Positions 19,174 through 56,788 of a stretch of 64,000 nucleotides of DNA are shown in pieces; position 1 is the stretch's first letter; each line of letters begins with the position of its first letter. The stretch comes from Burkholderiales bacterium (GTDB taxonomy: Bacteria; Pseudomonadota; Gammaproteobacteria; Burkholderiales; Burkholderiaceae_E). The notes beneath the pieces were generated by a model. That model was not told the origin of the DNA and did no database searches. It saw nothing but the letters and a program-made list of their open reading frames with translations. The translations under genes were made by a program, and so were the position numbers. The stretch spans positions 1 to 64,000 of the forward strand of contig JAPLQE010000055.1 in the NCBI GenBank assembly GCA_026399835.1. Direction: 5' to 3'.

Positions 19174-20187
19174 TCAGCCCGCGCGGCGCGCCGTGGCCAT
19201 CCGGCAGGCCAGCGCGAACGCGTTGGCCATCGCGCCGGTGTTGGCGATGCCGCGGCCCGCGATGTCGTAGGCGGTGCCGTGCGCAGGCGTCGCGATCGGC
19301 ATCGGCAGACCGCCCGGCACGGTCACGCCGCGCTCGAAGCCCATCAGCTTCATCGCGATCTGGCCCTGGTCGTGGTACATCGTGAGCACGCCGTCGTAGC
19401 CCGCACCGTCCTTGCGCGTGGCGCGCACGAACGTGGTATCCGCGGGGAAGGGCCCGTCGGCGGGGAAGCCGCGCGAGCGCGCGAGCGCCACGCCCGGCTC
19501 GATCACGTCGAGCTCCTCGCGGCCGAACGCGCCGTTGTCCCCGTTGTGCGGATTGAGCCCGCAGACCGCGATGCGCGGCTCGGCGATGCCGCCCTGGCGC
19601 AGGCCCGTGTAGAGCAGCTGCACGCCTTCGGCCACCTTGTCGGCGGTGATGAGCGCGCTGACCTCCTTGAGCGGCACGTGCGAGGTCACCCGCGAGGTCC
19701 ACAGGGTCTCGAGCACGTTGAACTCCACGCAGGGCCCGTGGAAGTCGAGCACCTCGCAGAAGAAGTGCAGCTCGTCCGGATGGCGCATGCCGCCGGCGCG
19801 CAGCGCCGCCTTGTTGAGCGGCGCGAAGCAGATGGCATCGGCCGCGCCGTCGCGGCACAGGTCGAGCGCGACGCGCAGGCCGTCGAGCATCCACGCGCCG
19901 TTCTTCGCGCCGGCCACGCCGCGCTCGAAGCCCTCGGCCTGCGCGCCGGCCCAGTCGACGAACATCGGCGTCTCGAGGGGTGCTGCGCGTGCGGCGCGCG
20001 CGTCGCCCGCGACGAACGCGAACGGCTTGCCGGTCACCGACACCGCGTCGTGCATCACCGCGCGGCTGGTGATCACCAGCAGCTCCGCGGCGCGCGCGCT
20101 CGCCGGATCGGCCAGCAGGCGGGCCGACAGTTCGGGGCCGATGCCGGCCGGGTCGCCGGTGAAGAACGCGATGCGGGGCTTGGACAT
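19174..20187 (-). CDS. PdxA2-type 4-phospho-sugar-acid dehydrogenase family protein
   Basis: A 337-residue NAD-dependent dehydrogenase of the PdxA family. The N-terminus is FFTGDPAGIGPEL. Metal ligands lie in RHPDELHFF (about 145) and YHDQGQIAMK (about 260), and GTAYDIAGRG is near the C-terminus. The YHDQGQIAMKLMGF form fits PdxA2 paralogues rather than the vitamin-B6 enzyme. Characterised PdxA2 enzymes oxidise and decarboxylate 4-phospho-threonate or erythronate made by DUF1537 kinases, but no such kinase is present here. Other PdxA relatives act on aromatic diols. It lies 20 bp behind the GntR gene, and an independent role in pyridoxal synthesis is unlikely. Confidence 0.85.
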   Translation of the reverse strand: MSKPRIAFFTGDPAGIGPELSARLLADPASARAAELLVITSRAVMHDAVSVTGKPFAFVAGDARAARAAPLETPMFVDWAGAQAEGFERGVAGAKNGAWMLDGLRVALDLCRDGAADAICFAPLNKAALRAGGMRHPDELHFFCEVLDFHGPCVEFNVLETLWTSRVTSHVPLKEVSALITADKVAEGVQLLYTGLRQGGIAEPRIAVCGLNPHNGDNGAFGREELDVIEPGVALARSRGFPADGPFPADTTFVRATRKDGAGYDGVLTMYHDQGQIAMKLMGFERGVTVPGGLPMPIATPAHGTAYDIAGRGIANTGAMANAFALACRMATARRAG

Positions 20188-20207
20188 CCGTGGATCCTCG
20201 ATGGGGG

Positions 20208-20909
20208 TCAGACGCCGTCGCCGGGCGCAGGGACGGCCGACGACACGCGCGGCCAGCTGTTGGCCATGTGCAGCTGCAGCCCGGCGGCGAGGCGCTCGCC
20301 GTCGCGCACGGCGAGCGCCGCGACGAAGGCCTCGTGCTCGGCCATCGCGGCCGCCCAGTTCTGCGGGTGGTGGTTGCCGATGTAGCGGATGCGGCGCATG
20401 CGCATGCGCAGCATGCCGTGCAGCATCGACAGCGTCGGGCTGTGGGCGGCGGCGACGATCGCGTCGTGCACCTGCTGGTTCAGCGCGAAGTACTCCGGCC
20501 GCTCGCGCCGCTCGTAGTGCTCGCGCATGCGGCGATGCATCGAGAGGATCGCGGCGATCTCGGCGTCGCTCGCCTGCACGGCGGCGAGCCGGCCGGCCTG
20601 GCCCTCGAGCAGCCCGGTGAGGGCGAGCATGTCCTGCGCGTCGCGCGGCGTCACCACCTTGACCACCGCGCCGCGCCCGGGCAGCAGCTCGACGAGCCCT
20701 TCGCTGGCCAGCACCTTGAGTGCCTCGCGCAGCGGCGTGCGCGAGATGCCGAGCGAGCGGGCGACCTCGAGCTCGGCGATGCGCTCGCCCGCCGCGAGTC
20801 GCCCCTCGACGATCAGGTCGCGCAGCCGGGCGATGACCTCGTCGTGCAGCGAGGGCCGCGCGATCGGCGTCTCCGGAAGCGGTGATTCGGCTTGACGAAG
20901 GGTGGACAT
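20208..20909 (-). CDS. GntR family (FadR/FCD) transcriptional regulator
   Basis: A 233-residue regulator. The winged helix-turn-helix lies at about residues 20-90 (RLRDLIVEGRLAAGERI, then SRTPLREALKVLASEGL). It is followed by an all-helical FCD ligand-binding domain (about 95-220) with the HxxxH-type positions typical of metal-assisted binding of organic acids (NQQVHDAIVAAAH, EHEAFVAAL). It sits between the divergent catabolic genes and upstream of the PdxA2 gene, so it most likely represses both directions until the substrate or a pathway intermediate binds. The ATG at 20909 is preceded by a promoter containing a palindrome. Confidence 0.9.
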   Translation of the reverse strand: MSTLRQAESPLPETPIARPSLHDEVIARLRDLIVEGRLAAGERIAELEVARSLGISRTPLREALKVLASEGLVELLPGRGAVVKVVTPRDAQDMLALTGLLEGQAGRLAAVQASDAEIAAILSMHRRMREHYERRERPEYFALNQQVHDAIVAAAHSPTLSMLHGMLRMRMRRIRYIGNHHPQNWAAAMAEHEAFVAALAVRDGERLAAGLQLHMANSWPRVSSAVPAPGDGV

Positions 20910-20916
20910 TGCACAT

Positions 20917-20945
20917 ACTGTAACTCCATAATTACGGAATACCAA
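20917..20945 (-). promoter_or_regulatory. promoter of the GntR gene with an internal operator palindrome
   Basis: On the minus strand a -35 box TTGGTA (20945-20940) and a -10 box TACAGT (20922-20917) are spaced by exactly 17 bp. The spacer holds the near-perfect palindrome TCCATAATTACGGA (20925-20938, one mismatched pair). A regulator bound there would block RNA polymerase, as expected for autorepression. The divergent genes start 19-26 bp away, so the same site could control them. On the plus strand, CATAAT at 20927-20932 or TACTGT at 20916-20921 with TTGACG at 20892-20897 are possible promoter parts. Confidence 0.55.
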
Positions 20946-20963
20946 GACGGAGACAGTCACGGC

Positions 20964-21869
20964 ATGGTCGAGGGGCTTCCCATCGTCGACGCGCACCAGC
21001 ACTTCTGGGATCCGACGACGAACCGCCACCCGTGGCTCTGCGACGAGCCGCCGATTCCGTTCCGCTATGGCGACTACCGCGCGATCCGCAGGCCCTACCT
21101 GCCCGCCGACTACTTCGCCGATGCGCGCGGCTTCGACGTCGTGGGCACGGTCTATGTCGAGACCGAATGGGATCCGACCGATCCGATCGGCGAGATCCGC
21201 TGGGTCGATGCGCTGCGCCGGCGCACCGGCTTTCCGACAGTGGCGGTCGGCCAGGCCTGGCTCGACCGCGCCGACTGCACCGCCACGCTCGAGGCGCTCG
21301 CGACCTTCGATTTCGTGCGCGGCGTGCGCCACAAGCCACGCGCGAACCCGCGCCCCGGCGAGGCCGCGCCCGGCGGCATGAGCGACCCCGCGTGGCGGGC
21401 CGGTTTCGCACGGCTCGAGCCCCTGGGGCTGCGCTTCGACCTGCAGTCGCCCTGGTGGCACTTCGGCGAGGCCGCACGGCTGGCCGCCGACTTCCCCGGC
21501 ACGCAGCTCATCGTCAACCACTGCGGCATGCCGTCCGACCGCAGCCCCGAGGGCCTCGCCGGATGGCGCGCGGCCTGCGCGGGGCTCGCCGCCTGCCCGA
21601 ACGTCGCGATCAAGCTGTCCGGGATCGGGCAGGCCGGGCTGCCCTGGACCGTCGCGGCCAACCGGCCGGTCGTCGAGACCCTGGTCGAGCTGTTCGGGCC
21701 GGCGCGCTGCATGGTCGGCAGCAACTTCCCGGTCGACTCGCTGTGCGCCGACTATCCGACGATCCTCGGCGGCTTTCGCGCGATCCTCGCCCCGCTCGCG
21801 CCCGCCGAGCAGCGGGCGGTGTTCCACGACACCGCGAACCGGCTCTACGCGATGGGGCTGCCGGCATGA
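20964..21869 (+). CDS. amidohydrolase-2 family metal-dependent hydrolase, probable lactonase
   Basis: A 301-residue TIM-barrel hydrolase of the COG3618 type. The metal motif is DAHQHFWDP (His 11, His 13), followed by HPWL. YVETEWDP and VRGVRHKPR come later, then IVNHCGMP and VGSNFPVDSL with the late catalytic Asp. Known relatives include L-rhamnono- and L-fucono-lactonases and 2-pyrone-4,6-dicarboxylate lactonase, so opening a lactone ring is the likeliest reaction. The ATG at 20964 follows a CGGAGAC ribosome binding site; upstream codons in frame would run through the operator. It is the first gene of the lactonase-dehydrogenase-TRAP run. Confidence 0.82.
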   Translation: MVEGLPIVDAHQHFWDPTTNRHPWLCDEPPIPFRYGDYRAIRRPYLPADYFADARGFDVVGTVYVETEWDPTDPIGEIRWVDALRRRTGFPTVAVGQAWLDRADCTATLEALATFDFVRGVRHKPRANPRPGEAAPGGMSDPAWRAGFARLEPLGLRFDLQSPWWHFGEAARLAADFPGTQLIVNHCGMPSDRSPEGLAGWRAACAGLAACPNVAIKLSGIGQAGLPWTVAANRPVVETLVELFGPARCMVGSNFPVDSLCADYPTILGGFRAILAPLAPAEQRAVFHDTANRLYAMGLPA

Positions 21870-22786
21870 GCGGCGCAGCGCCGAAGCCCACGCTGGGCTA
21901 CGTCGGTGTCGGCCTGATGGGCGGGCCCATGGTCGCGCGGCTCGTCGCGCGCGGCTGGACGGTGCGGGTCTTCGACCTGGTGCCCGAGCGGCTGCACGCC
22001 GCCGTCGCGGCGGGCGCGCAGTCCGCGGCATCGCCCGCCGACGCCGCGCGCGGCGCGGGGCTCGTGCTGCTCAACCTGCCGACGACCGATGCGGTCGAGC
22101 AGGCGGTGTTCGGTCCCGAGGGCGTCGTGTCCGCGATCCAGGCCCCCGCGCGCGTCGTCGACTTCTCGACGGTCGAGGTCGAGCGCGGCCGCGGCTTCGC
22201 CGCGCGCCTGCGCGCCGAGGCCGGCTGCGGCTGGGTCGACGCGCCGGTCTCGGGCGGCCCGCCGGCGAGCGCCGCGGGCACGCTGACCGTGATGGTCGGC
22301 GGCGAGCCCGAGGACGTCGAGGCGGCCTCGGTGCTGTGGCCCGAGGTCGGGGCCCGCGTCACCCACATGGGCCCGCCCGGCGCGGGCCTGGCCGCGAAGA
22401 TGATCAACCAGCTGATCGTCGGCTGCACGCACGCGGTGCTGGCGGAGGCCGCGGTGATGGCGGAGTCCGCCGGCATCGACGCCGCGCGCCTGCCCGAGTG
22501 CCTGGCCGGCGGCCATGCCGACGGCACGCTGCTGCAGCGCCTGTACCCGCGGATGGTCGCGCGCGAGTTCGCGCCCCAGGGCTACGCGCGGCAGCTGCTC
22601 AAGGACCTGGAGCTGGTCAGCGCGTTCGCGGGGGCCCTGAAGTCCCCCGCGCCGATGGCCGGCCAGGCGCTGTCGCTCTACCGGATGCTGATCCGGCTCG
22701 GCCATGCCGAGCTCGATACCTCGGCCGTGATGAAGCTCTACGAGCCCCCGACGGGGCCGCACCCAGACCAGGAGGAGACCCCATGA
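21866..22786 (+). CDS. NAD(P)-dependent 3-hydroxyisobutyrate dehydrogenase-like oxidoreductase
   Basis: A 306-residue beta-hydroxyacid dehydrogenase. The Rossmann motif is GYVGVGLMGGPM (about 11-22), the substrate-binding signature is DAPVSGGPPASAAGTLTVM (about 120), and the catalytic lysine is in AAKMINQL (about 174). The family oxidises 3-hydroxyisobutyrate, tartronate semialdehyde (reverse), L-threonate and similar acids. The ATG overlaps the lactonase stop and its own stop overlaps the DctP start (both ATGA), so the three are translationally coupled. It may act after lactone opening on the hydroxyacid product. Confidence 0.88.
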   Translation: MSGAAPKPTLGYVGVGLMGGPMVARLVARGWTVRVFDLVPERLHAAVAAGAQSAASPADAARGAGLVLLNLPTTDAVEQAVFGPEGVVSAIQAPARVVDFSTVEVERGRGFAARLRAEAGCGWVDAPVSGGPPASAAGTLTVMVGGEPEDVEAASVLWPEVGARVTHMGPPGAGLAAKMINQLIVGCTHAVLAEAAVMAESAGIDAARLPECLAGGHADGTLLQRLYPRMVAREFAPQGYARQLLKDLELVSAFAGALKSPAPMAGQALSLYRMLIRLGHAELDTSAVMKLYEPPTGPHPDQEETP

Positions 22787-23811
22787 CCCGATTCGCCCCG
22801 ACCGCCCACCGCCGGACCGCCGTCCGGCTCGCCGCGCTGTCCGTCCTCGCCGCTGCGCTCGCGCTGGGCGCCGCGCCCGAGGCGTACGCGCAGATCAAGC
22901 TGCGCTACGCGCACGTCGGCGTCGCCAACGCGCCGCAGACGCTGTACGCCGACGAGGTCGCCAAGCTCGTGAAGGAGCGCACCGCCGGCCGCGTCGAGAT
23001 CCAGGTGTTCGCCAACTCGCAGCTCGGCGGCGTCTCCGAGATGGTCGACGGCGTGCGCTCGGGCGCCATCGCGATGGGTCACCACGACTTCGCCTCGCTG
23101 GGCCGCATCGTGCCCACCACCGCGGTCTTCAACACGCCGTTCGTGTACCGCGACGCCGAGCACTCGATGCGCGCGACCGATCCGCGGACCTCGGTGGCGC
23201 TGCAGCTCATCAATGCCGACCTGGTCGCCAAGGGCAACATGCGGATCGTCGGCACCGCCTTCCAGGGCGCGCGCCAGCTGACCTCCAAGGAGAAGGTGCT
23301 GTCGCCCAAGGACATGGCGGGCAAGAAGTACCGCGGCGTGCCGGTCAAGCTCTGGTCGTCGATGATCACCGGCATGGGCGCGACCGCGACGCCGGTCGAG
23401 GTCTCCGAGCTCGCGACCGCGCTGGCCACCGGCCTGGTGGTCGGCCAGGAGAACCCGCTGCCGAACATCTTCAACCTCAAGCTCTACGAGGTGCAGAAGT
23501 TCGTGATGATGACGAACCACATGCAGTCGGTGCTGGCGGTCTTCGTCAACGAGCGCATCTGGCAGGGCATTCCGGCGGCCGACCGGAAGATCGTCGAGGA
23601 CACGATGCAGGAGGTCGGGCAGCGCACCCTGAAGTGGGACCGCGATTCCTCGGCGCAGTACCGCAAGGACCTCGAGGCCAAGGGCATGACCTTCATCGAG
23701 CAGAAGGACGGGCTCGACGTCGAGGCCTTCCGCAAGTCGGTGCTCGCCCAGGTCGCCAAGGACTTCCCGGACTGGACGCCGTACATCGAGCAGATCCGGG
23801 CGGTGAAGTGA
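22783..23811 (+). CDS. dctP: TRAP transporter periplasmic binding protein (DctP family)
   Basis: A 342-residue substrate-binding protein that hands a carboxylated solute to the membrane TRAP permease. The signal peptide is cleaved after about residue 36 (AYAQIKLRYAHV). The conserved arginine that salt-bridges the substrate carboxylate is in FQGARQLTS (about 165), so the ligand is almost certainly an organic or sugar acid. It starts on an ATGA overlap with the dehydrogenase gene and heads the P-Q-M transporter genes in the usual order. The exact ligand cannot be read from the sequence. Confidence 0.92.
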   Translation: MTRFAPTAHRRTAVRLAALSVLAAALALGAAPEAYAQIKLRYAHVGVANAPQTLYADEVAKLVKERTAGRVEIQVFANSQLGGVSEMVDGVRSGAIAMGHHDFASLGRIVPTTAVFNTPFVYRDAEHSMRATDPRTSVALQLINADLVAKGNMRIVGTAFQGARQLTSKEKVLSPKDMAGKKYRGVPVKLWSSMITGMGATATPVEVSELATALATGLVVGQENPLPNIFNLKLYEVQKFVMMTNHMQSVLAVFVNERIWQGIPAADRKIVEDTMQEVGQRTLKWDRDSSAQYRKDLEAKGMTFIEQKDGLDVEAFRKSVLAQVAKDFPDWTPYIEQIRAVK

Positions 23812-23824
23812 GCGGCACGCGCCG

Positions 23825-24328
23825 ATGAAGCTCGCGTCCGCGCTGCTGGCGGCGGTCCGGCGGGCCGTCCGCTGGCTGTCGGTGGCGCTGCTGGTGCTGC
23901 TGATCGTCACCCCGTTCGCGCAAGTGCTGATGCGTGGCGTGTTCGGCGCGCCGATGTCCGGCGCCGAGGAGCTCACCCGCTGGTTCCTGATCTGCCTGTG
24001 CTTCCTCGGCGCGTCGTACGTGAGCGTGGAGGGCGGGCAGGTCCGGATGGAAGAGTTCCAGGCGCTGCTGCCGGATCGGCCGCGCTGGCTGCTGCAGCTG
24101 GTCATCGAGGCCGCGGGCGTCGTGCTGTTCGCGCTGCTCGCGGTGGCCACGCTCGCCTCGATCCGCTCGCAGATCGGCACCACCACCGCGACGCTGGAGA
24201 TGCCGATGTGGCTGTTCATGGGCCCGCTGGCGCTCGGCGGGGCGCTGCTGTCGCTCGAGAGCGCGATCGCGTTCGGCCGCACCTTCGCTCGCGGCCGCCC
24301 CGACGACAAGCAGACCACGCTCACCTGA
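23825..24328 (+). CDS. dctQ: TRAP transporter small permease (DctQ family)
   Basis: A 167-residue membrane protein with four predicted helices (about 15-40, 50-70, 88-110, 125-148). The family landmarks FAQVLMRGVFGAPMSGAEEL and RWFLICLCFLGASY are present. It partners the large permease to form the Na+-coupled elevator transporter. It lies 13 bp after dctP and 14 bp before dctM. Confidence 0.9.
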   Translation: MKLASALLAAVRRAVRWLSVALLVLLIVTPFAQVLMRGVFGAPMSGAEELTRWFLICLCFLGASYVSVEGGQVRMEEFQALLPDRPRWLLQLVIEAAGVVLFALLAVATLASIRSQIGTTTATLEMPMWLFMGPLALGGALLSLESAIAFGRTFARGRPDDKQTTLT

Positions 24329-24342
24329 ACGCACCCTGATCC

Positions 24343-25626
24343 ATGGCCGGCTACCTCGTGATCGCCTCCTTCGTAGGGCTCTTCGTCCTCGGCTTTCCGG
24401 TGGTACTCGCCATCGGCCTGCCGTCGGTCGCCTACCTGCTGTGGAACGACCTGCCGCTGATGATGATCGCGCAGCGCACGGTCTACGCGATGGACTCGTT
24501 CCCGCTGGTCGCGGTGCCGGTGTTCCTGTTCGTCGGCAGCCTGATGAACGCCTCGGGCATCTCGGCGTACATCTACCGGTTCGCCGACACCGCGGTCAGC
24601 CGGCTGCCGGGCGGCCTGGCGCAGGTCAACATCTTCGGCAGCCTGGTGTTCTCGGGCATCTCCGGCTCGGCGCTCGCCGACATCGGCGGCCTCGGGCGCA
24701 TCGAGATCGACGCGATGCGCGCCAAGGGCTTCTCGGTGCCGTTCGCCAGCGCCGTGACCTGCTCGTCGGCGATCATCGGCCCGATCTTCCCGCCCTCGAT
24801 CCCGCTGATCATCTACGGCACGGTGACCGGCGCCTCGGTGCTGCAGCTGCTGCTCGGCGGCATCCTGCCGGGGCTGCTGTGCACCGCCGCGCTGATGGCG
24901 ATGGCGGCCTGGCTCGCGTGGCGTCGCGGCTACCCGCGGGCCGAGCGCTGGCCGACCCGCGGCGAGGTGGTGCGCGACATGCTGCCGGCGATCCCGGCGC
25001 TGCTCGCGCCGGTCATCCTGGTCGTGGGTATGCTCGCCGGCTACTTCACGCCGACCGAGATCGCTTCGGTGACGGTGGTCTACACCATCGCCATCAGCGC
25101 GCTGTTCTACAGCAAGCTTACGGTGAAGGGGCTGCTGGAGGCCGCGTTCGAGACGGTGAAGGCGACCTCCGGGATCCTGCTGATCGTGGCGGTCGCCGCG
25201 CTCTTCGGCTGGATCCTGTCGGTCGAGCAGGTGCCGCAGCAGGTGGCCGGCGCGATGCTCTCGGTGTCGACGGATCCGTTCGTGCTGCTGGCCATCGTCA
25301 ACGTGTTGCTGATCGTGGTGGGCATGTTCCTCGACAGCACCACCGCGATCCTGGTGATCGCGCCGATCATCGCCAAGCCGCTGGTGGCGGCGGGCGTGGA
25401 CCCCGTCCACCTGGGCATGGTGGTGGTGTTCAACCTGATGATCGGCCTGGTGACGCCGCCGATGGGCCTGGCGCTCTACCTGGTGTCGGACATCGCGAAG
25501 GTCTCGATGCGATCGGTGCTGCGCGAGATGCTTCCGTTCTACGTGCCGCTGGTGGGCACGCTGCTGGCGATCACGTACATTCCTGCGCTGACCGTGTGGC
25601 TGCCGAGGCTGATGGTCTCGCCGTAG
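24343..25626 (+). CDS. dctM: TRAP transporter large permease (DctM family)
   Basis: A 427-residue transport subunit with about 12 membrane segments. Typical DctM features are FSGISGSALADIGGLG (about 105), the IGPIFPPSIPLIIYG substrate/ion-binding hairpin (about 148), and MFLDSTTAILVIAPI with GLVTPPMGLALYL in the second repeat. Length and motifs are complete, so the transporter should be functional. It ends the TRAP genes; a VOC-fold gene follows 64 bp later. Confidence 0.95.
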   Translation: MAGYLVIASFVGLFVLGFPVVLAIGLPSVAYLLWNDLPLMMIAQRTVYAMDSFPLVAVPVFLFVGSLMNASGISAYIYRFADTAVSRLPGGLAQVNIFGSLVFSGISGSALADIGGLGRIEIDAMRAKGFSVPFASAVTCSSAIIGPIFPPSIPLIIYGTVTGASVLQLLLGGILPGLLCTAALMAMAAWLAWRRGYPRAERWPTRGEVVRDMLPAIPALLAPVILVVGMLAGYFTPTEIASVTVVYTIAISALFYSKLTVKGLLEAAFETVKATSGILLIVAVAALFGWILSVEQVPQQVAGAMLSVSTDPFVLLAIVNVLLIVVGMFLDSTTAILVIAPIIAKPLVAAGVDPVHLGMVVVFNLMIGLVTPPMGLALYLVSDIAKVSMRSVLREMLPFYVPLVGTLLAITYIPALTVWLPRLMVSP

Positions 25627-25690
25627 CGCCGCTCGGCGTTCCGCATCCCCATCCCGACGCCCGGTGCGTCCGACAGGAGTGATCCCAAGC

Positions 25691-26074
25691 ATGTTCTCGC
25701 ACGTGATGATCGGCACCAACGACCTGGCGAAGTCCCGAGCGTTCTACGACGCGGTCCTGGGCACCCTGGACGTGCCCGCGGGCAACCTCGACCGGTACCG
25801 TGTCTTCTGGCGCACGCCGGCCGGCGTGTTCTCGGTGTCCGAGCCGATCGACGGCAAGCCGGCGACCGTCTGCAACGGCGGCACGATCGGGTTCGCCTGC
25901 AAGTCGCCCGAGCAGGTCGATGCCTGGCATGCTGCCGGCGTCGCCAACCGCGGCACGACCTGCGAGGCCCCGCCGGGCGTGCGCGAGGGCGCGGCCGGCA
26001 AGATGTACCTGGCCTACCTGCGCGACCCGGACGGCAACAAGATCTGCGCGCTGCACCGCATGCCGCGGACCTGA
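25691..26074 (+). CDS. VOC (glyoxalase/dioxygenase-fold) family protein
   Basis: A 127-residue single VOC domain made of two beta-alpha-beta-beta-beta units: SHVMIGTNDLAKSRAFYDAVL, then MYLAYLRDPDGNKICALHR. A possible metal site uses His 4 and the late acidic residue, but the catalytic set is not obvious. I chose the ATG at 25691 because the VOC strand begins there and AGGAG lies 10 bases upstream; a GTG at 25664 is less likely. It follows the TRAP genes on the same strand and may serve the same pathway, or be unrelated. It is convergent with the next gene, with a 14-bp gap. Confidence 0.8.
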   Translation: MFSHVMIGTNDLAKSRAFYDAVLGTLDVPAGNLDRYRVFWRTPAGVFSVSEPIDGKPATVCNGGTIGFACKSPEQVDAWHAAGVANRGTTCEAPPGVREGAAGKMYLAYLRDPDGNKICALHRMPRT

Positions 26075-49250: not shown

Positions 49251-52200
49251 ATGACCTCGCGCCTGCCCCGCAAGCCCGTCCTGGCGGTGCTCGCCGTGGC
49301 GGTCGTCGTCCTCGCCTCGGTCGCCGCGGTGCTCGCCTGGCGGGCCTCGGCGCCTGGCGGTGGGCCCGCCGAGACCGCAGCGCCCGGCACCGCCGCCGCG
49401 TTCGATCTCGCCGACTGCAGGCCGCGGCTGTTCGACGGTTCGCCCGCGGTCGCGGTGATGTTCACGCGTCCGCTCCGGCGCTCGCAGGACTGGGCGAAGC
49501 TCGTCCAGGCCACCGAGGGCGAAGACGCCGCGGGCGCGACGCCGGTGCCCTCGCGCTGGGTGCTCGGCGACAACCCGCGCGTGCTGTACCTGCCCAACGC
49601 GACGCCCGAGCGCACCTACCGCGTGCGCATCGACGCGGGCCTGGCCGCCGCTGACGGCGCGACGCTGCCGGTCGCGCAGGCCTGCTCGGTCAAGAGCGAG
49701 GCGATGCCCGAGGCCTTCCACTTCGCCAGCCGCGGCGTGGTGCTGCCCGCCGGCCAGAACGGCGGCCTGCCGGTGGTGACGGTCAACGTGCCCGAGGTCG
49801 ACGTGCAGTTCCTGCGCGTGCGGCCGGACGCCTGGGCGGCCTTCCTGCAGCAGGTCGGTGGCCGGCGCGAGCGCGGGGCCGACGGGGCGGGCGACGCCGA
49901 GGATCCGAACGGCGAGCCCTACGGCGACTCGCGGCTCAAGGGCCGGGTGGGGGTGGACGCGCTCGAGCAGCTGCGCGCCAGCGCCGACCTGGTCCATGCG
50001 GGCCGCTTCGCGACCGACCCGCGGCCGAACCGGCGCACGGTCAGCTTCCTGCAGGTCGAGAAGATCGACGCACTCAAGGAGCCGGGGCTGTACGTCGCGG
50101 TGATGAACCCGCCGGGACGCTTCGCCTACGACTACCAGGTCACGCACTTCCACGTCACCGACATCGGGCTGCATGCGCGGCGCCGCAGCGCGCAGACCGA
50201 CGTGTTCGCGACCTCGCTGAAGACCGGGACCGCGCTGCGCGATGTCGAGGTCTCGGCGATCGACGCGACCGGCAAGCCGCTCGCGCAGGCCCGCACCGAT
50301 GCTCAGGGACGGGCCGCCTTTGCCGGGGGGCTGGAGAAGGCGCGTGCGATCGTCGCGCGCCAGGGCCGGCAGCTGTCGCTGCTCGGCCTGCGCGATCCGG
50401 CGCTCGACCTGTCCGAGTACGACGTCGGCGGGCATCCGTCTCGCGGGCAGAAGCTGTTCGTCTGGGCCGGCCGCGACCTGTACCGCCCCGGCGAGACCTT
50501 CGTCGCCTCGGTGCTCGCGCGCGATGCGGACGGACGGCTGCCGCCGGCGCCGAGCGCCGGGTCCGGCCCAGCCGCCGCCCCCGCTGCTTCCCCCGCCGCT
50601 GCCCCCGTGTCCCCGCCGCTGACGCTGACCGTGAAGCGCCCCGACGGCGACGTCGCCCAGACGCGGCTGGTGCGGGCCCATGCGAGCGGTGCCGGCTACT
50701 ACCAGCAGCCGATCGTGCTGCCGTCGGATGCGCCCACCGGGCGCTGGCTGCTCGAGGCCCGGACCGATCCGGGCTCGAAGCAGCCGATCGCGCAGTGGCC
50801 GTTCCAGGTCGAGGAGTTCCTGCCCGAGCGGATGAAGCTCGAACTCGCCGCGCCCGCGGCGGCTCTCGCCGGGGACGCCCCGCTGGCGGTCGCGGTCCGG
50901 GGCGACTACCTGTACGGTGCGCCCGCCGCCGGCAACCGCCTGCTCGGCAGCGTGTTCACGGAGCGCGATCGCAACCCGCTGCCGCAGGCCTGGCCTGGGT
51001 TCGTGTTCGGCGACGCCGACGACGACGCCGCCCGCAAGCGGGCCGAGCTCGAGGAGGCGACCCTCGACGACGCGGGAAGGGCGCAGGTGAGCGTGCCCGT
51101 CGACGTCGCGGAGCGCCGCTCGCCGATGAAGGTGCGCGCGAGCTTCAGCCTGCTCGAATCGGGCGGCCGTCCGGTGGTGCGCTCGATCGAGCGCACCTGG
51201 TGGCCGGCGCCGGTGCTGCTCGGCGTGCGCCCGCTGTTCGAGCGCGACGTCGCGCGCGAGGGCAGCGCCGCCGGATTCGAGGTGGTGCGCACCGATGCCA
51301 CGGGCGCGTTCGTGCCCGCCCGGGACATCCAGGTGCGGCTGGTGCGCGAGGAGCGCCGCTGGTATTGGCGCTACGACGAAGGGCGCGGCTGGAACGGTGG
51401 CTACCTCGTCGAGGAAGAGCTCGCCGAGGCGCGCACGCTCGCGCTCGCCGCCCGCACGACGCTGTCGCTGCCGGTCGGCTGGGGGCGCTATCGGCTCGAG
51501 CTGCACGACCCGGCGACCGGGCAGACGCTGCGTCACCGCTTCTACGCGGGCTGGGGTGCGCAGGACGCGGACGACGTCGGCAACCGGCCCGACCGCGTGC
51601 AGCTCAGGCTCGAGGGCGCCCCCTACGCCGCCGGCGCGGTCGCCAAGCTCATGGTGGTGCCGCCTCATGACGGCGAGGCGCTGGTGACCGTCGAGGGCGA
51701 CCGGGTGCTGTTCGCCCGGCGCGTGCCCGTGCGCGCCTCGGGCACGGCGATCGAGATCCCCGTCGATCCCTCCTGGAGCCGGCACGACCTGTATGTCGGC
51801 GTCGTCGCGTTCCGGCCGGGCAGCGAGGGGGACCGGGTGACGCCGGCCCGCGCGATCGGTCTCGTGCATCTGCCGCTGTCCCGCGATGCGCGTCGCCTGA
51901 AGCTCGAGCTCACCGCGCCCGCGAAGGTCACGCCCGAGCAGAGCGTGCCGGTCAGGCTGCGCCTGTCCGACGCCGCCGGGCGCCCGCCCGCCGCCGGCAC
52001 CGCGATCGTCACCGTGTCTGCGGTCGACGTCGGCATCCTGGGCATCACGCGCTATGCGCCGCCCGATCCGGCCGACTTCTTCTTCGGCAAGCACCGCTAC
52101 GAGGCCGACCTGCTCGACCTGTACGGCAAGCTGATCGAGAAGATGGACGGGTCCGTCGCCCGGCAGCGCTTCGGTGGCGACGCGGGCGTGCGCGACACGC

Positions 52201-54374
52201 AGAGCCTGCCGCGCCGCGTGCGGCTGGTCGACCTGTTCACCGGCCCGGTGGTGGTGGACGCCCGCGGCGAGGCCACGGTGCCGCTGGCGCTGCCGGACTT
52301 CAACGGGACGCTGCGGCTGATGGCGGTGGCGGCGACCGCCGACGCCTACGCGAGCGCGCAGGCCGAGATGACGGTGGCTGCCCCGCTGGTGGCCGAGCTC
52401 TCGATGCCGCGCTTCGTGTCGCCCGGCGACAGCGCCGCGATCGCGCTCGACCTGACCAACCTGTCGGGCGCGCCGCAGACCGTGTCGGTCAAGGTCGAGG
52501 CCGGGCCGCCGCTCAAGCTCGTCGGTGCACCGGGTCCGGTGAAGCTCGCCGACGGGCAGCGCACCGTGCTGCGCTACACCGCCGAGCCGACCGAGGCGGA
52601 CGGTCTCGCCCCGATCCGCGTCACCGTGACCGCAGGCGCGATCCGGATCGTGCGCGAGGCGGCGCTGCAGGTGCAGCCGGCCACGCCGGCGGTGCGCCAG
52701 GTGAGGCGGCTGCGGCTCGAGCCCGGCGCGCAGGCGAAGCTCGATCCGGGCCTCGCCGACGGCCTGTGGCCGGGCACCGTCACCGTCGGCATGTCGCTGT
52801 CGGCCACGCCGCCCATCGACGTCCGCGAGGCCGTGCGCGGGCTGCTGTCCTATCCGTACGGCTGCCTGGAGCAGACCACCAGCGCGGCCTATCCGCTGGT
52901 GTTCGTCGACGAGGCGGGGGCCGCGGCGGTCGGCATCAAGCCGCTGTCGCGCGAGGAGCGCGAGGCCCGGCTCGTTCAGGCCTTCGGCCGGTTGTCGGGC
53001 ATGCAGCAGCCGCAGGGCGGCTTCGGCCTCTGGAGCGCGGGCGGGCCCTACGAGGGCTGGCTGAGCGCCTATGTGACAGGGTTCCTGCAGGATGCGCGCG
53101 ACGCCGGCTTCCCGGTGCCCGCGCGCCTGCAGCAGCGCGCCGCCGACGCGCTGCTCGAGCGGCTGCAGCGTGCGCCTGCGCAGCAGCGCCCGGCACCGCG
53201 CGAGGCCGGGCGCGACGCGCAGGGCCGCCCCGATCCGCGCGAGCTCGACACGATGCGCGAGGCCCACCAGCGCTTCGCTGACGCCGCCTTCGCCGGCTAC
53301 GTGCTGGCCCGCGAGCAGCGCGCGCCGCTCGCCACGCTGCGCACCCTGCACGACGGTGCGCGCTCGGTGGCGCGCTCGCCGCTGCCGCTGGTCCATCTGG
53401 GGCTGGCGCTGCGCCTGATGGGTGACGAGGCACGCGCGCAGGTCGCGCTCGACGAGGCGATGTCGCGCCCGTACGGGCTCGGCACGGCGGATGTGGCCGA
53501 CGGATGGGGCAACGAGTGGCTGGGCGACTACGGCTCACCGGTGCGCGACCTGGCGATGGCGTATGCGCTGATGCTGCGGCATCAGGCGGCCCACCCGCGG
53601 CGCGAGGCCCTGCTGGATGCGCTGGCCCGCAGCAGCGACCGGCGCCGCTACCTGTCCACCCAGGAGCGGCTCGCGCTCTTCATGGCGGCCCGTGCGGCTG
53701 GCGGCAGCGGGGCGCCGTGGAGCGTGACGCTGCAGGCCGCGGACGCCACGCAGACCCTGAGTGCCAGCCGTGGCGAGCAGCGCAGCTGGGATGCGGCGAC
53801 GCTGCGCCGCGGCATCACGGTGACCAACACCTCGGCCGAGCCGCTGTTCGTGGAGGTGGCGGTGGCCGGCCATCCGGTCAAGGCGCCTGTCTCGGGCGAT
53901 GATGCGATCGCCGTCGAGCGCGCCTGGTTCGCGGCCGACGGCAGCCCGCTGCCGGCGGGGCGCCCGCTTCGAACGGGCGAGCTGCTGGTGGTGCGGCTGC
54001 GGGTGAAGGCGAAGCAGCGCATCCGTGACGGGCTGGTGGTCGACCGGATCCCGGCCAGCCTCGAGGTCGAGAACCGCAACCTGATGCAGGGGCCGGGTGC
54101 GGGCGAGTTCAAGGTCGATGGCGTGAACGTGGCCGAGGCGATGGCCGACGGCCGCATCCGGCACGTCGAGTTCCGGGACGACCGGTTCGTCGCCGCCGTC
54201 GAGCTCGACGGCTCGCGCCAGCAGCTCTTCTACACGGTGCGCGTCGTCACGCCGGGCCGCTACGTGGTGCCCGCGTCCTTCGCGGAGGACATGTACCGGC
54301 CCGAGCTGCGCGGCGTCGGGCGTGCGGAGCCGGACCTGGTCGTCGTCGACCCGCGCGCGCCCGCGGCGCGCTGA
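49251..54374 (+). CDS. bacterial alpha-2-macroglobulin (YfhM-like protease trap)
   Basis: A 1707-residue periplasmic protein that traps proteases through a reactive thioester. The thioester motif GCLEQTTS is intact (Cys 1205 to Gln 1208). MG domains occupy roughly 200-1000, including an FVASVLARD-type segment near 420, and a TED/CUB and receptor-like C-terminus follow. The N-terminus is an uncleaved-looking membrane anchor (about 9-29) with no lipobox, unlike the lipidated E. coli YfhM. A proline/alanine-rich linker lies near 430-455. The next gene is pbpC, the classical partner thought to repair peptidoglycan after attack. Confidence 0.93.
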   Translation: MTSRLPRKPVLAVLAVAVVVLASVAAVLAWRASAPGGGPAETAAPGTAAAFDLADCRPRLFDGSPAVAVMFTRPLRRSQDWAKLVQATEGEDAAGATPVPSRWVLGDNPRVLYLPNATPERTYRVRIDAGLAAADGATLPVAQACSVKSEAMPEAFHFASRGVVLPAGQNGGLPVVTVNVPEVDVQFLRVRPDAWAAFLQQVGGRRERGADGAGDAEDPNGEPYGDSRLKGRVGVDALEQLRASADLVHAGRFATDPRPNRRTVSFLQVEKIDALKEPGLYVAVMNPPGRFAYDYQVTHFHVTDIGLHARRRSAQTDVFATSLKTGTALRDVEVSAIDATGKPLAQARTDAQGRAAFAGGLEKARAIVARQGRQLSLLGLRDPALDLSEYDVGGHPSRGQKLFVWAGRDLYRPGETFVASVLARDADGRLPPAPSAGSGPAAAPAASPAAAPVSPPLTLTVKRPDGDVAQTRLVRAHASGAGYYQQPIVLPSDAPTGRWLLEARTDPGSKQPIAQWPFQVEEFLPERMKLELAAPAAALAGDAPLAVAVRGDYLYGAPAAGNRLLGSVFTERDRNPLPQAWPGFVFGDADDDAARKRAELEEATLDDAGRAQVSVPVDVAERRSPMKVRASFSLLESGGRPVVRSIERTWWPAPVLLGVRPLFERDVAREGSAAGFEVVRTDATGAFVPARDIQVRLVREERRWYWRYDEGRGWNGGYLVEEELAEARTLALAARTTLSLPVGWGRYRLELHDPATGQTLRHRFYAGWGAQDADDVGNRPDRVQLRLEGAPYAAGAVAKLMVVPPHDGEALVTVEGDRVLFARRVPVRASGTAIEIPVDPSWSRHDLYVGVVAFRPGSEGDRVTPARAIGLVHLPLSRDARRLKLELTAPAKVTPEQSVPVRLRLSDAAGRPPAAGTAIVTVSAVDVGILGITRYAPPDPADFFFGKHRYEADLLDLYGKLIEKMDGSVARQRFGGDAGVRDTQSLPRRVRLVDLFTGPVVVDARGEATVPLALPDFNGTLRLMAVAATADAYASAQAEMTVAAPLVAELSMPRFVSPGDSAAIALDLTNLSGAPQTVSVKVEAGPPLKLVGAPGPVKLADGQRTVLRYTAEPTEADGLAPIRVTVTAGAIRIVREAALQVQPATPAVRQVRRLRLEPGAQAKLDPGLADGLWPGTVTVGMSLSATPPIDVREAVRGLLSYPYGCLEQTTSAAYPLVFVDEAGAAAVGIKPLSREEREARLVQAFGRLSGMQQPQGGFGLWSAGGPYEGWLSAYVTGFLQDARDAGFPVPARLQQRAADALLERLQRAPAQQRPAPREAGRDAQGRPDPRELDTMREAHQRFADAAFAGYVLAREQRAPLATLRTLHDGARSVARSPLPLVHLGLALRLMGDEARAQVALDEAMSRPYGLGTADVADGWGNEWLGDYGSPVRDLAMAYALMLRHQAAHPRREALLDALARSSDRRRYLSTQERLALFMAARAAGGSGAPWSVTLQAADATQTLSASRGEQRSWDAATLRRGITVTNTSAEPLFVEVAVAGHPVKAPVSGDDAIAVERAWFAADGSPLPAGRPLRTGELLVVRLRVKAKQRIRDGLVVDRIPASLEVENRNLMQGPGAGEFKVDGVNVAEAMADGRIRHVEFRDDRFVAAVELDGSRQQLFYTVRVVTPGRYVVPASFAEDMYRPELRGVGRAEPDLVVVDPRAPAAR

Positions 54375-54385
54375 GTCGCCCGCCC

Positions 54386-56788
54386 GTGGTGACCCCGCCG
54401 CTCCCGTCACCACGACCGCGTCCGACCCCGCGCCTTCGGCGCGCCGGCCTGGTGCTGGCCGGGCTCGCGTTCGGGGTGCTCGGCATCCTGGCGCTCGACC
54501 GCGCGTTCCCGCTGCCCGCGGCGGCCCGCACGCCCGGCGGCGCGCCCGGCACGGTGATGGTGGTGGCGGCCGACGGCACGCCGCTGCGCGGCTGGGCGGG
54601 CTCTGACGGCGCGCTGCGGCAGCCGGTGGCGCTCGACGCGGTGTCGCCGCTGTACCTGCAGGCGCTGCTGCAGGTGGAGGACCGCTGGTTCATGCAGCAT
54701 CCGGGCGTGAACCCGCTCGCGATGCTGCGGGCCACAGCGCAGTGGCTGCGGGCCGGGCGCGTGGTCTCGGGCGGCTCCACGCTGACGATGCAGGTCGCCC
54801 GCATCCTCGACCCGCCCGCGGGCTCCTCGCGCACGCTCGGCGCCAAGCTGCGGCAGATCGCCCGCGCGCTGCAGCTCGAGGCGCATCTCGACAAGCGCGA
54901 GATCCTCGCGCTGTACCTGAACCATGCGCCGATGGGCGGGCAGGTCGAGGGTGTGGAGGCGGCCGCGCGCGGCTACCTCGGCAAGTCCGCGCGCGAGTTG
55001 AGCCATGCCGAGGCGGCGCTGCTGGTGGCGCTGCCTCAGATGCCGTCCCGTCTGCGCCCCGACCGGGCCCCCGCGGCCGCGCGACAGGCGCGCGACCGGG
55101 TGCTCGAGCGGATGCGCGTGCGCGGCGTGTGGACGGCGGCCGAGGTGGCCGACGCGAAGCTCGAGGCGGTGTTCGCGCCGCCGCTTCGGGCCCGCTGGCT
55201 GGCGCCGCTGGCTGCCGAGCGGGTGCGTGCCGCCGATGCGGCGCTGCGCCCCGGTGCCGCCGCGCGCGAGGGCCGCGTGCTGAGCACGACGATCGACGCC
55301 GGCGTGCAGGCGCAGCTCGAGCGGATGCTCCAGGACCGGCTGGCGATGCTGCCCCCGCAGGTCTCGGTCGCCGCCCTGGTCGTCGACAACCGCACGCTCG
55401 CGGTACTCGGCTACGCCGGCTCGGCCGACTTCACCGACGAGGCGCGGGCCGCGCACGTCGACATGGTCCGCGCACAGCGCTCGCCCGGCTCCACGCTCAA
55501 GCCCTTCCTCTACGCGATGGCGCTGGACGACGGGCTGGTGCACTCCGAGAGCCTGCTGATCGATGCGCCGCAGCGCTTCGGGGACTACGCGCCGGGCAAC
55601 TTCCAGGCCGCCTTCGCCGGAGCGGTCAGTGTCAGCGAAGCACTGCAGCGCTCGCTGAACGTGCCCGCGGTCGACCTGCTCGAGCGTGTCGGCCCGGCGC
55701 GCTTCGCCGCCCGCCTGCGCGAGGGCGGGCTGCGCCTGCACATGCCGGGCGGCGCCGAGCCCAACCTGAGCCTGGTGCTCGGCGGCGCGGGCACCACGCT
55801 CGAGGCGCTCGTCGGCGCCTACACGGCGCTCGCGCGCGGCGGCGTCGCGGGCCGCCCGCGGCTGCTGCCGCAGGCGCCGCTGGTGGAATCGCGCCTGATG
55901 AGCGCCGGCGCCGCCTTCGTGGTCCGCGAGATTCTCGAGAGCGGCGGGCGCCCGGACGCGCCGTTTCGCGAGACCTCGCGCCGGATCGCCTGGAAGACCG
56001 GCACGAGCTTCGGCTTTCGGGACGCCTGGGCGGTCGGCGTCACCGACCGTCACACCGTCGGCATTTGGGTCGGCCGCCCCGACGGCACGCCGAACCCCGG
56101 CCACTTCGGGGCGAACACCGCCGCGCCGATCGTCCACGACCTGATCGCCGCCCTCGGGCCCAGCGCGACGCAGCCGCGGACCGTACCGGTCGGCGTCGCC
56201 TCGACCGAGATCTGCTGGCCGCTGGGCGGGTCGGCCGCCGCCACGCCGCCGGCGCACTGCCGCGTGCGTCGCACCGCCTGGACGCTCGACGGCACCACCC
56301 CGCCGACCCTTCCCGATCGCGTGCGCCCCGGTGGCCTGATCGAGACCGCGTGGGTCGATCCGCGCACCGGCGAGCGCCTGCATGCCGGGTGCCTGCAGGG
56401 CGGGCGGACAGCGCCGCGGGGCGAGCCGCTGGCCCGCTGGCCGGCGCTGCTCGAGCCCTGGATCGACGGTCGCTGGCGCGCCGAGCTCGAGACGCGCCCG
56501 TGGGCCGCGGCCTGCGCGCAAGGGGATCCGCGGCGCGCGCTGCGGGTGTCCGGCATCGAGCCCGGCAGCATCGCGCGGGCCGCCCCCGGGCGCAGCGAGG
56601 TGGTGCTCCAGCTGCGTGCGGTCGGCTCGCAGGAGGGCCTCACCTGGCTGCTCGACGGCACCTGGGTGGGCGACACGCCGCCGCGCGCGCCGACGCTGCG
56701 CCTGGTGCTGCGCGCGGCGGGCGACCACGCCCTCACCGTGCTCGATGCGCAGGGCCGCTGGGAGCGCGTCGCGTTCAGCGTGCGCTGA
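54386..56788 (+). CDS. pbpC: penicillin-binding protein 1C
   Basis: An 800-residue bifunctional peptidoglycan synthase. After a membrane anchor (about 18-40) comes a GT51 glycosyltransferase (VEDRWFMQHPGVNPLAMLRA near 95, GGSTLTMQVAR near 130). The transpeptidase has SxxK as STLK (Ser 369), SLN in LQRSLNVPA (about 423) and KTG in AWKTGTSFGF (about 537). The C-terminus is the BiPBP_C immunoglobulin-like domain typical of PBP1C. The start is GTG (54386 or 54389), 11 bp after the macroglobulin gene, so the two form an operon. It ends 6 bp from the convergent oxygenase gene. Confidence 0.95.
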   Translation: MVTPPLPSPRPRPTPRLRRAGLVLAGLAFGVLGILALDRAFPLPAAARTPGGAPGTVMVVAADGTPLRGWAGSDGALRQPVALDAVSPLYLQALLQVEDRWFMQHPGVNPLAMLRATAQWLRAGRVVSGGSTLTMQVARILDPPAGSSRTLGAKLRQIARALQLEAHLDKREILALYLNHAPMGGQVEGVEAAARGYLGKSARELSHAEAALLVALPQMPSRLRPDRAPAAARQARDRVLERMRVRGVWTAAEVADAKLEAVFAPPLRARWLAPLAAERVRAADAALRPGAAAREGRVLSTTIDAGVQAQLERMLQDRLAMLPPQVSVAALVVDNRTLAVLGYAGSADFTDEARAAHVDMVRAQRSPGSTLKPFLYAMALDDGLVHSESLLIDAPQRFGDYAPGNFQAAFAGAVSVSEALQRSLNVPAVDLLERVGPARFAARLREGGLRLHMPGGAEPNLSLVLGGAGTTLEALVGAYTALARGGVAGRPRLLPQAPLVESRLMSAGAAFVVREILESGGRPDAPFRETSRRIAWKTGTSFGFRDAWAVGVTDRHTVGIWVGRPDGTPNPGHFGANTAAPIVHDLIAALGPSATQPRTVPVGVASTEICWPLGGSAAATPPAHCRVRRTAWTLDGTTPPTLPDRVRPGGLIETAWVDPRTGERLHAGCLQGGRTAPRGEPLARWPALLEPWIDGRWRAELETRPWAAACAQGDPRRALRVSGIEPGSIARAAPGRSEVVLQLRAVGSQEGLTWLLDGTWVGDTPPRAPTLRLVLRAAGDHALTVLDAQGRWERVAFSVR

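Follow-up and report, generated by a model that had tools for sequence, protein, structure and literature searches.

The first 64,000 nucleotides of contig JAPLQE010000055.1 from a Burkholderiales bacterium (GenBank assembly GCA_026399835.1), referred to here as the window, carry an eight-gene cluster in which the genes for a GntR-type regulator and a PdxA-family protein diverge from those for a putative lactonase of the Amidohydrolase_2 family (AH2), a HIBADH-family dehydrogenase, the TRAP transporter proteins DctP, DctQ and DctM, and a VOC protein. To all appearance the cluster is an uncharacterised offshoot of the vitamin-C breakdown pathway and not wholly new chemistry: ascorbate catabolism already offers both this type of reaction and the partnership with a lactonase, and what looks new is the branch itself, with its pairing of regulator and operator, its HIBADH and TRAP genes and its substrate. 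With middling confidence we interpret the cluster as a self-contained, GntR-regulated unit for the uptake and degradation of an unphosphorylated carboxylated sugar lactone or acid, in which the enzyme pair is related to that of L-ascorbate catabolism and a kinase is not needed. The basis for this is the gene content, its co-conservation, a spacer motif shared with other loci, and the replacement of substrate and phosphate residues in PdxA with retention of the metal ligands. We favour it because variant PdxA and AH2 travel together, loci with a LyxD-like dehydratase recur, and the same type of GntR recurs with the same spacer motif.

Judged by its sequence, the window PdxA belongs to a divergent subfamily and is not of the threonate type. 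It matched seven NCBIfam equivalogs of the PdxA type and fell short of the cut-off of each, among them TIGR00557 (252.6, cut-off 290.35) and NF002891 (179.9, cut-off 583). The nearest solved folds to its model (pLDDT 90.7) are PdxA and then TphB, with a TM-score of 0.86 to 1ps6 by query length, and it is 28-35% identical to the solved PdxA and PdxA2 proteins among the top fold matches. The metal-binding histidines of E. coli PdxA, H166, H211 and H266, have their counterparts in H170, H214 and H272, which are kept in all 80 relatives compared; these are the best 80 of at least 573 PdxA relatives, many are near-alike Pseudomonas sequences, and counts made on them are of loci and not of independent events. 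The substrate residues of the E. coli enzyme are H136, T137, K274, N283 and R292 (UniProt P19624), with the phosphate contacts presumably among them; the aligned residues of the window protein are E139, L140, K280, T289 and I298, leaving one of the five (K280) in place. Throughout the 80 relatives H136 is replaced by E, N283 by T and D296 by A, while R292 becomes I (67), V (12) or L (1) and T137 is retained in only two. Relatives that are linked to a LyxD-like enolase-superfamily dehydratase carry this same signature, with the same kinds of residue replaced.

Two solved proteins of the phosphorylated-substrate kind, the PdxA2 2hi1 and the D-threonate 4-phosphate dehydrogenase 6e85, retain the standard motifs GHTE and RTSADHG. 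TphB, the terephthalate cis-dihydrodiol dehydrogenase (4aty, 8zj3), is like the window protein in combining the PdxA fold with loss of GHTE and RTSVDHG, and it acts on an unphosphorylated substrate, as a dehydrogenase/decarboxylase by its structure title; it is unlike the window protein in sequence (24-26% identity) and in its replacement letters, and no dioxygenase is found in the window cluster. An unphosphorylated substrate is likely for the window PdxA because H136, N283 and R292, presumed contacts of substrate and phosphate, are replaced, just as TphB, with its unphosphorylated substrate, has lost the same motifs. A preliminary description of this DNA had offered a new PdxA2 reaction on an unphosphorylated acid as one explanation; the replaced residues make such an acid likely, but a PdxA fold at work on one is already known from TphB. 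The same description held that clustering with characterised threonate enzymes would refute its proposal, and the NF002891 score and the replaced ligands indicate that this PdxA is not of that type. A role in pyridoxal phosphate biosynthesis was considered and rejected, given that the genome has a second PdxA, on contig C8, which scores 388 against the TIGR00557 cut-off of 290 and is likely the housekeeping enzyme. Of the 74 genomes of the family, 71 have a PdxA match, which in most cases shares 30-43% identity with the window protein.

Variant PdxA is often accompanied by AH2. Among the 80 loci, an AH2 relative lies on the stretch in 39 and is the next called gene in 26; a LyxD-like dehydratase occurs in 37, in 23 of them together with AH2; an L-fuconate-dehydratase-like protein occurs in five and a DUF1537 kinase in six, and 21 loci have none of these. 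The counts come from the second version of a home-made gene caller (tblastn likewise gave 39/80 for AH2, and in locus L123 it found a PdxA for which no gene had been called). The labels LYXD, FUCD and OTNK were assigned in this analysis; one LYXD-labelled protein reaches 241 bits for L-rhamnonate dehydratase (cut-off 393) and the FUCD-labelled protein of L073 scores 580 bits to the solved L-fuconate dehydratase 2hne.

In the L-ascorbate pathway of Cupriavidus necator H16, which Stack et al. reportedly described in 2020, an amidohydrolase is said to open 2-carboxy-L-lyxonolactone and a PdxA-family enzyme to decarboxylate the free acid with catalytic NAD+, alongside LyxD, KGSADH, AraD1, a cytochrome b561, a gluconolactonase and a YncE/WD40-like rearrangement enzyme. 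The window resembles that pathway in pairing an amidohydrolase-superfamily, presumed lactonase with a PdxA-family enzyme for an apparently unphosphorylated acid, and the statement in the preliminary description that no known lactonase pathway combines these enzymes does not hold. It differs in the clade of its PdxA, in having HIBADH and TRAP genes instead, and in that LyxD, KGSADH, AraD1, b561, gluconolactonase and YncE are not among the eight cluster genes. Runs in Sphingomonas parapaucimobilis (L263: cytochrome b561, symporter, porin, SMP-30/gluconolactonase, YncE propeller, PdxA, 'L-rhamnonate dehydratase' and AraD1) and in Variovorax PBL-E5 (L259: PdxA, dehydratase, a DHDPS-type gene and b561) have no AH2 on their stretches and otherwise appear to match the gene set reported for that pathway. 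A passage of PMC10444878 cites Stack et al. 2020 as the ground for testing ascorbate on a SAR202 strain. Among the open-licence papers searched, we recognised no description of an AH2-HIBADH-PdxA combination. To our knowledge, the particular combination in the window, with a HIBADH-type dehydrogenase and a TRAP carrier and without LyxD, matches no reported pathway.

Two trees, both made in quick mode with SH-aLRT support only, with long-branch warnings, and with copies and misjoined frames left out, place the window among these relatives. The PdxA tree has 94 rows, 91 of them variant: clade I has 49 (35 LyxD-linked), clade II has 31 (SH-aLRT 97), and eleven lie outside both, in a third group that includes two LyxD-linked rows (L137, L140) and to which the PdxA proteins of L263 and L259 are closest (71-72% to L140). 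Among the members of clade II are the PdxA of the window and those of the remaining HIBADH-TRAP clusters and of GntR-PdxA-receptor loci, as well as PdxA proteins beside OtnK, OtnC and OtnI (L082, L085) or within about 5 kb of them (L127). In the second tree a group of 12 rows (98) unites the window AH2 with those of the HIBADH-TRAP clusters and of three loci that have a fuconate dehydratase, and the LyxD-linked AH2s lie elsewhere. We regard the window as a separate branch because its PdxA is in the other clade, no LyxD orthologue was found in its genome, it has gained HIBADH and TRAP genes, and it shares its proposed GntR operator with loci that in their smallest version have GntR, PdxA and a TctC receptor.

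Outside the genus, ten loci have a relative of the window GntR (49-70% identity) that faces PdxA or AH2. Fourteen spacers between GntR and its divergent neighbour, selected for the presence of a GntR relative, share GTAATTACnnnTTAC-like sites; over 16 positions these depart from the best word by 0-3 mismatches, or by 5 in the case of L049. They comprise GntR-AH2 spacers (window, L047, L048, L049, L065, L071) and GntR-PdxA spacers (L074, L077, L079, L081, L084, L113, L120, L124), and six spacers without such a GntR match worse, at 5-8 mismatches. In the loci examined, matrix hits of 20 bits or more occur only in the 14 spacers and their copies, a result that is no independent proof since the matrix was built from the same sites. 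The window site (C58:20928) is the only one in its genome with two or fewer mismatches to the pattern, and at three mismatches there are 5 sites against 3 in the control; the pattern overlooks degenerate sites, the operator of G046 among them. We propose that the window site is the GntR operator. Loci L077, L079, L084, L124 and others like them consist minimally of GntR, PdxA and a TctC receptor with the shared spacer motif, and are possibly one-enzyme regulons.

The cluster is more than a chance coincidence, because three of the eleven other genomes of the genus carry it (G045, G046, G050) and four further loci (L065, L068, L070, L071) repeat the AH2-HIBADH-DctPQM run, with PdxA adjoining its end or one gene away. 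In G046 and G050 PdxA adjoins mutS, which is also the gene beyond PdxA in the window; in G045 the contig stops just past PdxA and the neighbours beyond the VOC end match those of the window. All three contigs end within the cluster or just past PdxA, and G052, of the same genus, has only a fragment of a variant PdxA. The VOC gene adjoins DctM in the single genus relative whose contig extends that far (L048, 79%), and a search of the 80 loci at 1e-8 found no relative of it. Orthologues of the HIBADH dehydrogenase are uncommon: with five candidates per genome scored, 8 of 399 sampled genomes of the order, including that of the window, have one at E 1e-68 or better. The AH2-HIBADH pair extends to the Alphaproteobacteria, in Mesorhizobium (L260; 60% and 52%), Microvirga (L267; 53% and 47%) and, more weakly, Roseinatronobacter (L265; 52% and 38%).

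The model of AH2 (pLDDT 93.5) has 4dlf, 6uvz and 2-pyrone-4,6-dicarboxylate hydrolases as its nearest solved folds, and its HxH metal motif (H10, H12) is invariant in 24 of 24 aligned sequences; the match to the L-fucono-lactonase family NF052480 is weak (76.4, cut-off 400). The dehydrogenase is below the cut-offs of PRK11559, HIBADH, TIGR01505 and the L-threonate dehydrogenase LtnD (NF043037, 152 against 350). DctP, DctQ and DctM occur together and with family scores, as expected of a TRAP transporter. The solved relatives of DctP are TRAP binding proteins with mostly generic names, some of them sialic-acid binding; they were discarded as a guide to the substrate, no ligand being readable from them.

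From family and fold, the TRAP carrier would import the acid or lactone and AH2 would open the lactone ring. PdxA, to judge from its residues and the parallel with ascorbate, would then use a divalent metal and NAD+ to oxidise the hydroxyl beta to the carboxylate, with loss of CO2, in a step that might be redox-neutral, as reported for the conversion of 2-carboxy-L-lyxonate to L-lyxonate, or might yield net NADH. The HIBADH-type dehydrogenase, considered by its family, may oxidise or reduce the product, which would pass to pathways encoded elsewhere. Candidate substrates are the 2-carboxy-L-pentonolactones formed non-enzymatically from diketogulonate in plant tissue: passages in PMC11066805 and PMC5398285 place 2-carboxy-L-lyxono/xylonolactone in plant material, and passages in these two and in PMC6225978 describe the non-enzymatic formation of carboxylated pentonolactones. 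Since such lactones form non-enzymatically, it would be reasonable for a cell to import them while lacking the earlier enzymes of ascorbate breakdown, a link that is our guess.

Several observations weigh against this interpretation. K274 (E. coli numbering), itself a substrate residue, is retained in 80/80 relatives, the assignment of the phosphate contacts is presumptive, and the genus of the window departs from its own clade at the motif positions (DELHFF, VTVPGG). The window PdxA stands apart from the LyxD-linked enzymes, which are in clade I (35) and the third group (2), and in clade II an AH2 relative is present on the stretch for only nine of the 31 rows, some contigs being short. AH2 has Asn253 (counted from base 20967) where 4dlf has its strand-8 Asp; the residue is Asn in 24/24 sequences and also in 6uvz, and the hydrolytic mechanism may differ, or the reaction itself (lactone isomerisation?). 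The best LyxD match in the genome is at about 32-35% identity (C73, two pieces of one frame), and no orthologue was found there. Finally, HIBADH is not known to have a role in the ascorbate pathway.

The alternative that survives best, which we nevertheless consider unlikely, is that clade II PdxA makes 3-oxo-tetronate by oxidising C3 of an unphosphorylated C4 acid (threonate or erythronate). An OtnK and an OtnC encoded outside the cluster would convert the product to dihydroxyacetone phosphate, and AH2 would supply the acid from its lactone. Routes for D-threonate, L-threonate and D-erythronate, reportedly worked out by Zhang et al. in 2016, are said to use DUF1537 kinases, PdxA2, LtnD, OtnC and OtnI. 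They resemble the window in employing a PdxA-fold enzyme and a HIBADH-family dehydrogenase, and some clade II PdxAs neighbour OtnK-OtnC-OtnI: in L082 and L085 PdxA lies directly before these three genes and in L127 all three are within about 5 kb, the L082 kinase scoring 637.7 bits to NF043035 (cut-off 350). They differ in that the window cluster is kinase-free, its PdxA is without most of the presumed substrate and phosphate residues, and its HIBADH is below the LtnD cut-off. The genome of the window has two DUF1537 kinase genes. That on C68 is a 3-oxo-tetronate kinase OtnK (593.8 bits, cut-off 350) adjoining a D-erythronate dehydrogenase DenD (429.5, cut-off 325); an OtnC-like gene is on C18, with the other genes of that route not among its called neighbours, and an LtnD-like dehydrogenase is on C72 (309 bits on the matched part, cut-off 350). 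The other kinase, on C26 (L006), has a weak OiaK match (240.9, cut-off 700) and lies beside a RuBisCO-like protein whose best model is OiaX (392.3, cut-off 700), a possible apionate-type variant.

By phylogenetic profile, 25 of 30 genomes from mixed clades have an OtnK that exceeds its cut-off. Within the family it occurs in 15 of 18 genomes with a variant PdxA and 28 of 56 without (Fisher p 0.014), or 16/19 and 27/55 (p 0.008) if the G036 fragment counts as variant, the variant line of at least 47% identity having been drawn after seeing the data. Within the genus the figures are 4/4 cluster carriers and 1/8 others (p 0.010), or 4/5 and 1/7 (p 0.07) if the G052 fragment counts as a carrier. 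All these p-values ignore kinship, OtnK is common (43/74 family genomes), and the association is positive but weak. OtnK is without a match in four clade II carriers (L116, L067, L069, L066; genomes G481 and G484-G486) and stays below its cut-off in a fifth (L072, G478), and three of the six OtnK-bearing loci (L136, L138, L139) belong to clade I. The OtnK and OtnC genes of the window's genome have likely partners in DenD and the C72 dehydrogenase, and an ordinary C4-acid route with its own dehydrogenases may be present. The preliminary description had asked for DUF1537 genes elsewhere under the same operator: the kinases exist, but the 12 kb and 16 kb around them and the 20 kb around OtnC contain no operator copy scoring at least 9 bits, and matrix and pattern searches, which could miss a degenerate site, found none at OtnK, DenD or OtnC. 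A 3-oxo-tetronate route also leaves HIBADH unexplained.

It is less probable still that AH2 and HIBADH alone make up the pathway, from lactone to hydroxyacid to keto acid with RraA or PdxA finishing, and that PdxA has a separate job through a shared regulator. Locus L177 has AH2-HIBADH-DctPQM without PdxA on a 16 kb stretch, L267 has an RraA gene and no PdxA on the stretch shown, and Limnohabitans-type loci have PdxA with a TctC receptor, mostly with GntR, six such genomes having no HIBADH match above 41%. In the window, however, PdxA and GntR are co-oriented beside AH2, and the close association of PdxA with the run in the four further loci also argues against a separate job. L267, on a Microvirga ossetica plasmid, reads GntR, HIBADH, AH2 and an RraA-like aldolase/decarboxylase. 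In L179 and L182 the neighbours of a HIBADH orthologue are a second AH2, an IlvD resembling arabinonate dehydratase, a PdxA of the canonical GHTE type and a protein resembling galactarate dehydratase; L179 additionally has an AH2 with the HIBADH orthologue, and a GarL-like aldolase.

Improbable to a similar or slightly greater degree is the ascorbate branch itself, in which 2-carboxy-L-lyxonolactone would yield L-lyxonate and non-orthologous enzymes elsewhere in the genome would carry out the later steps. The AH2 and PdxA families and their pairing suit it, and the genome has several enolase-superfamily relatives at 23-35% identity; the clade II placement and the missing LyxD orthologue led us to reject it as the main interpretation, and it accounts neither for the lack of b561, gluconolactonase and YncE among the cluster genes nor for a dedicated HIBADH that overlaps AH2. 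Near L-fuconate-dehydratase-type enolases, five loci (L073, L076, L109, L111, L135) have a clade I variant PdxA, four of them with an AH2 relative; as a guess, this type is perhaps a branch for another carboxylated aldonate, for example from isoascorbate.

It is very improbable that the window protein is a classical PdxA2, oxidatively decarboxylating a 4-phospho acid that a DUF1537 kinase supplies in trans, and this explanation was discarded: the genome has two such kinases and K274 is kept, but H136, N283 and R292 are replaced in 80/80 relatives while 2hi1 and 6e85 keep their motifs, both kinases are under the D-threonate kinase cut-off (117.6 and 63.8, cut-off 450), and neither has a detected operator copy.

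The layout of the cluster is given in the table. The open reading frame list, the sequence and refined starts confirm the eight genes, and the gene order in the preliminary description is borne out by the reading frames, by Pfam and by 4-base overlaps between AH2 and the HIBADH dehydrogenase and between the latter and DctP. A Pfam search of the eight genes found no kinase, as had been said, and no aldolase. The term 'island' is not warranted, the G+C content of 71.5% showing no anomaly against a sliding mean of 72.7% (s.d. 1.5). The earlier interpretation is partly supported: a kinase is seemingly not needed, but the chemistry and the lactonase pairing were already known. Elsewhere in the window (49251-56788), a 1707-residue protein is followed by one of 778 residues; by eye the two resemble a pair of alpha-2-macroglobulin and penicillin-binding protein 1C.

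Table. Genes and proposed operator of the cluster, with window positions and supporting family matches (cut-offs in brackets).
Feature	Position	Strand	Evidence
PdxA-family metal/NAD enzyme, variant subfamily clade II	19174..20187	-	PF04166 278 bits (27)
GntR/FCD regulator, same orientation as PdxA	20208..20909	-	PF00392 and PF07729
Proposed GntR operator, CCATAATTACGGAATACC	20926..20943	+	Between GntR and amidohydrolase; best common word of 14 GntR-divergent spacers
AH2, Amidohydrolase_2 (COG3618-like) putative lactonase	20964..21869	+	PF04909 154 bits (26.4)
HIBADH-family dehydrogenase, 3-hydroxyisobutyrate/tartronate-semialdehyde type	21866..22786	+	PF03446 and PF14833
DctP, TRAP solute-binding protein	22783..23811	+	PF03480 211 bits (23.4); TIGR00787 176.9 (175.05)
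DctQ, TRAP small permease	23825..24328	+	PF04290 84 bits (28.3); Pfam only
DctM, TRAP large permease	24343..25626	+	PF06808 349 bits (23.8); TIGR00786 388 (268)
VOC/glyoxalase-fold protein, cluster membership uncertain	25691..26074	+	PF00903 35.5 bits (20.6)

Somewhat tentatively, we extend our interpretation of the cluster as a degradation unit to clade II as a whole. It may be an uncharacterised catalytic subfamily of PdxA, an NAD-dependent and perhaps redox-neutral decarboxylase/dehydrogenase of free hydroxy acids, able to serve as the sole enzyme of a GntR regulon made up of GntR, one operator, PdxA and a tricarboxylate-type receptor. In the genus of the window it would have been joined by a lactonase, a HIBADH and a TRAP carrier for a natural, probably plant-derived carboxylated lactone that is consumed by no described pathway. 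Annotation gives such variant genes the name of PdxA, the vitamin B6 enzyme, yet all 80 of the relatives examined, the best of at least 573, have changed active-site residues. If our interpretation is correct, variant PdxAs help to break down free acids of the sugar type, and fall into at least two branches that can be separated by tree, context and regulator, and the window, with one regulator, one operator, three enzymes and one carrier, would be a small unit in which to identify the acid or lactone that is eaten.

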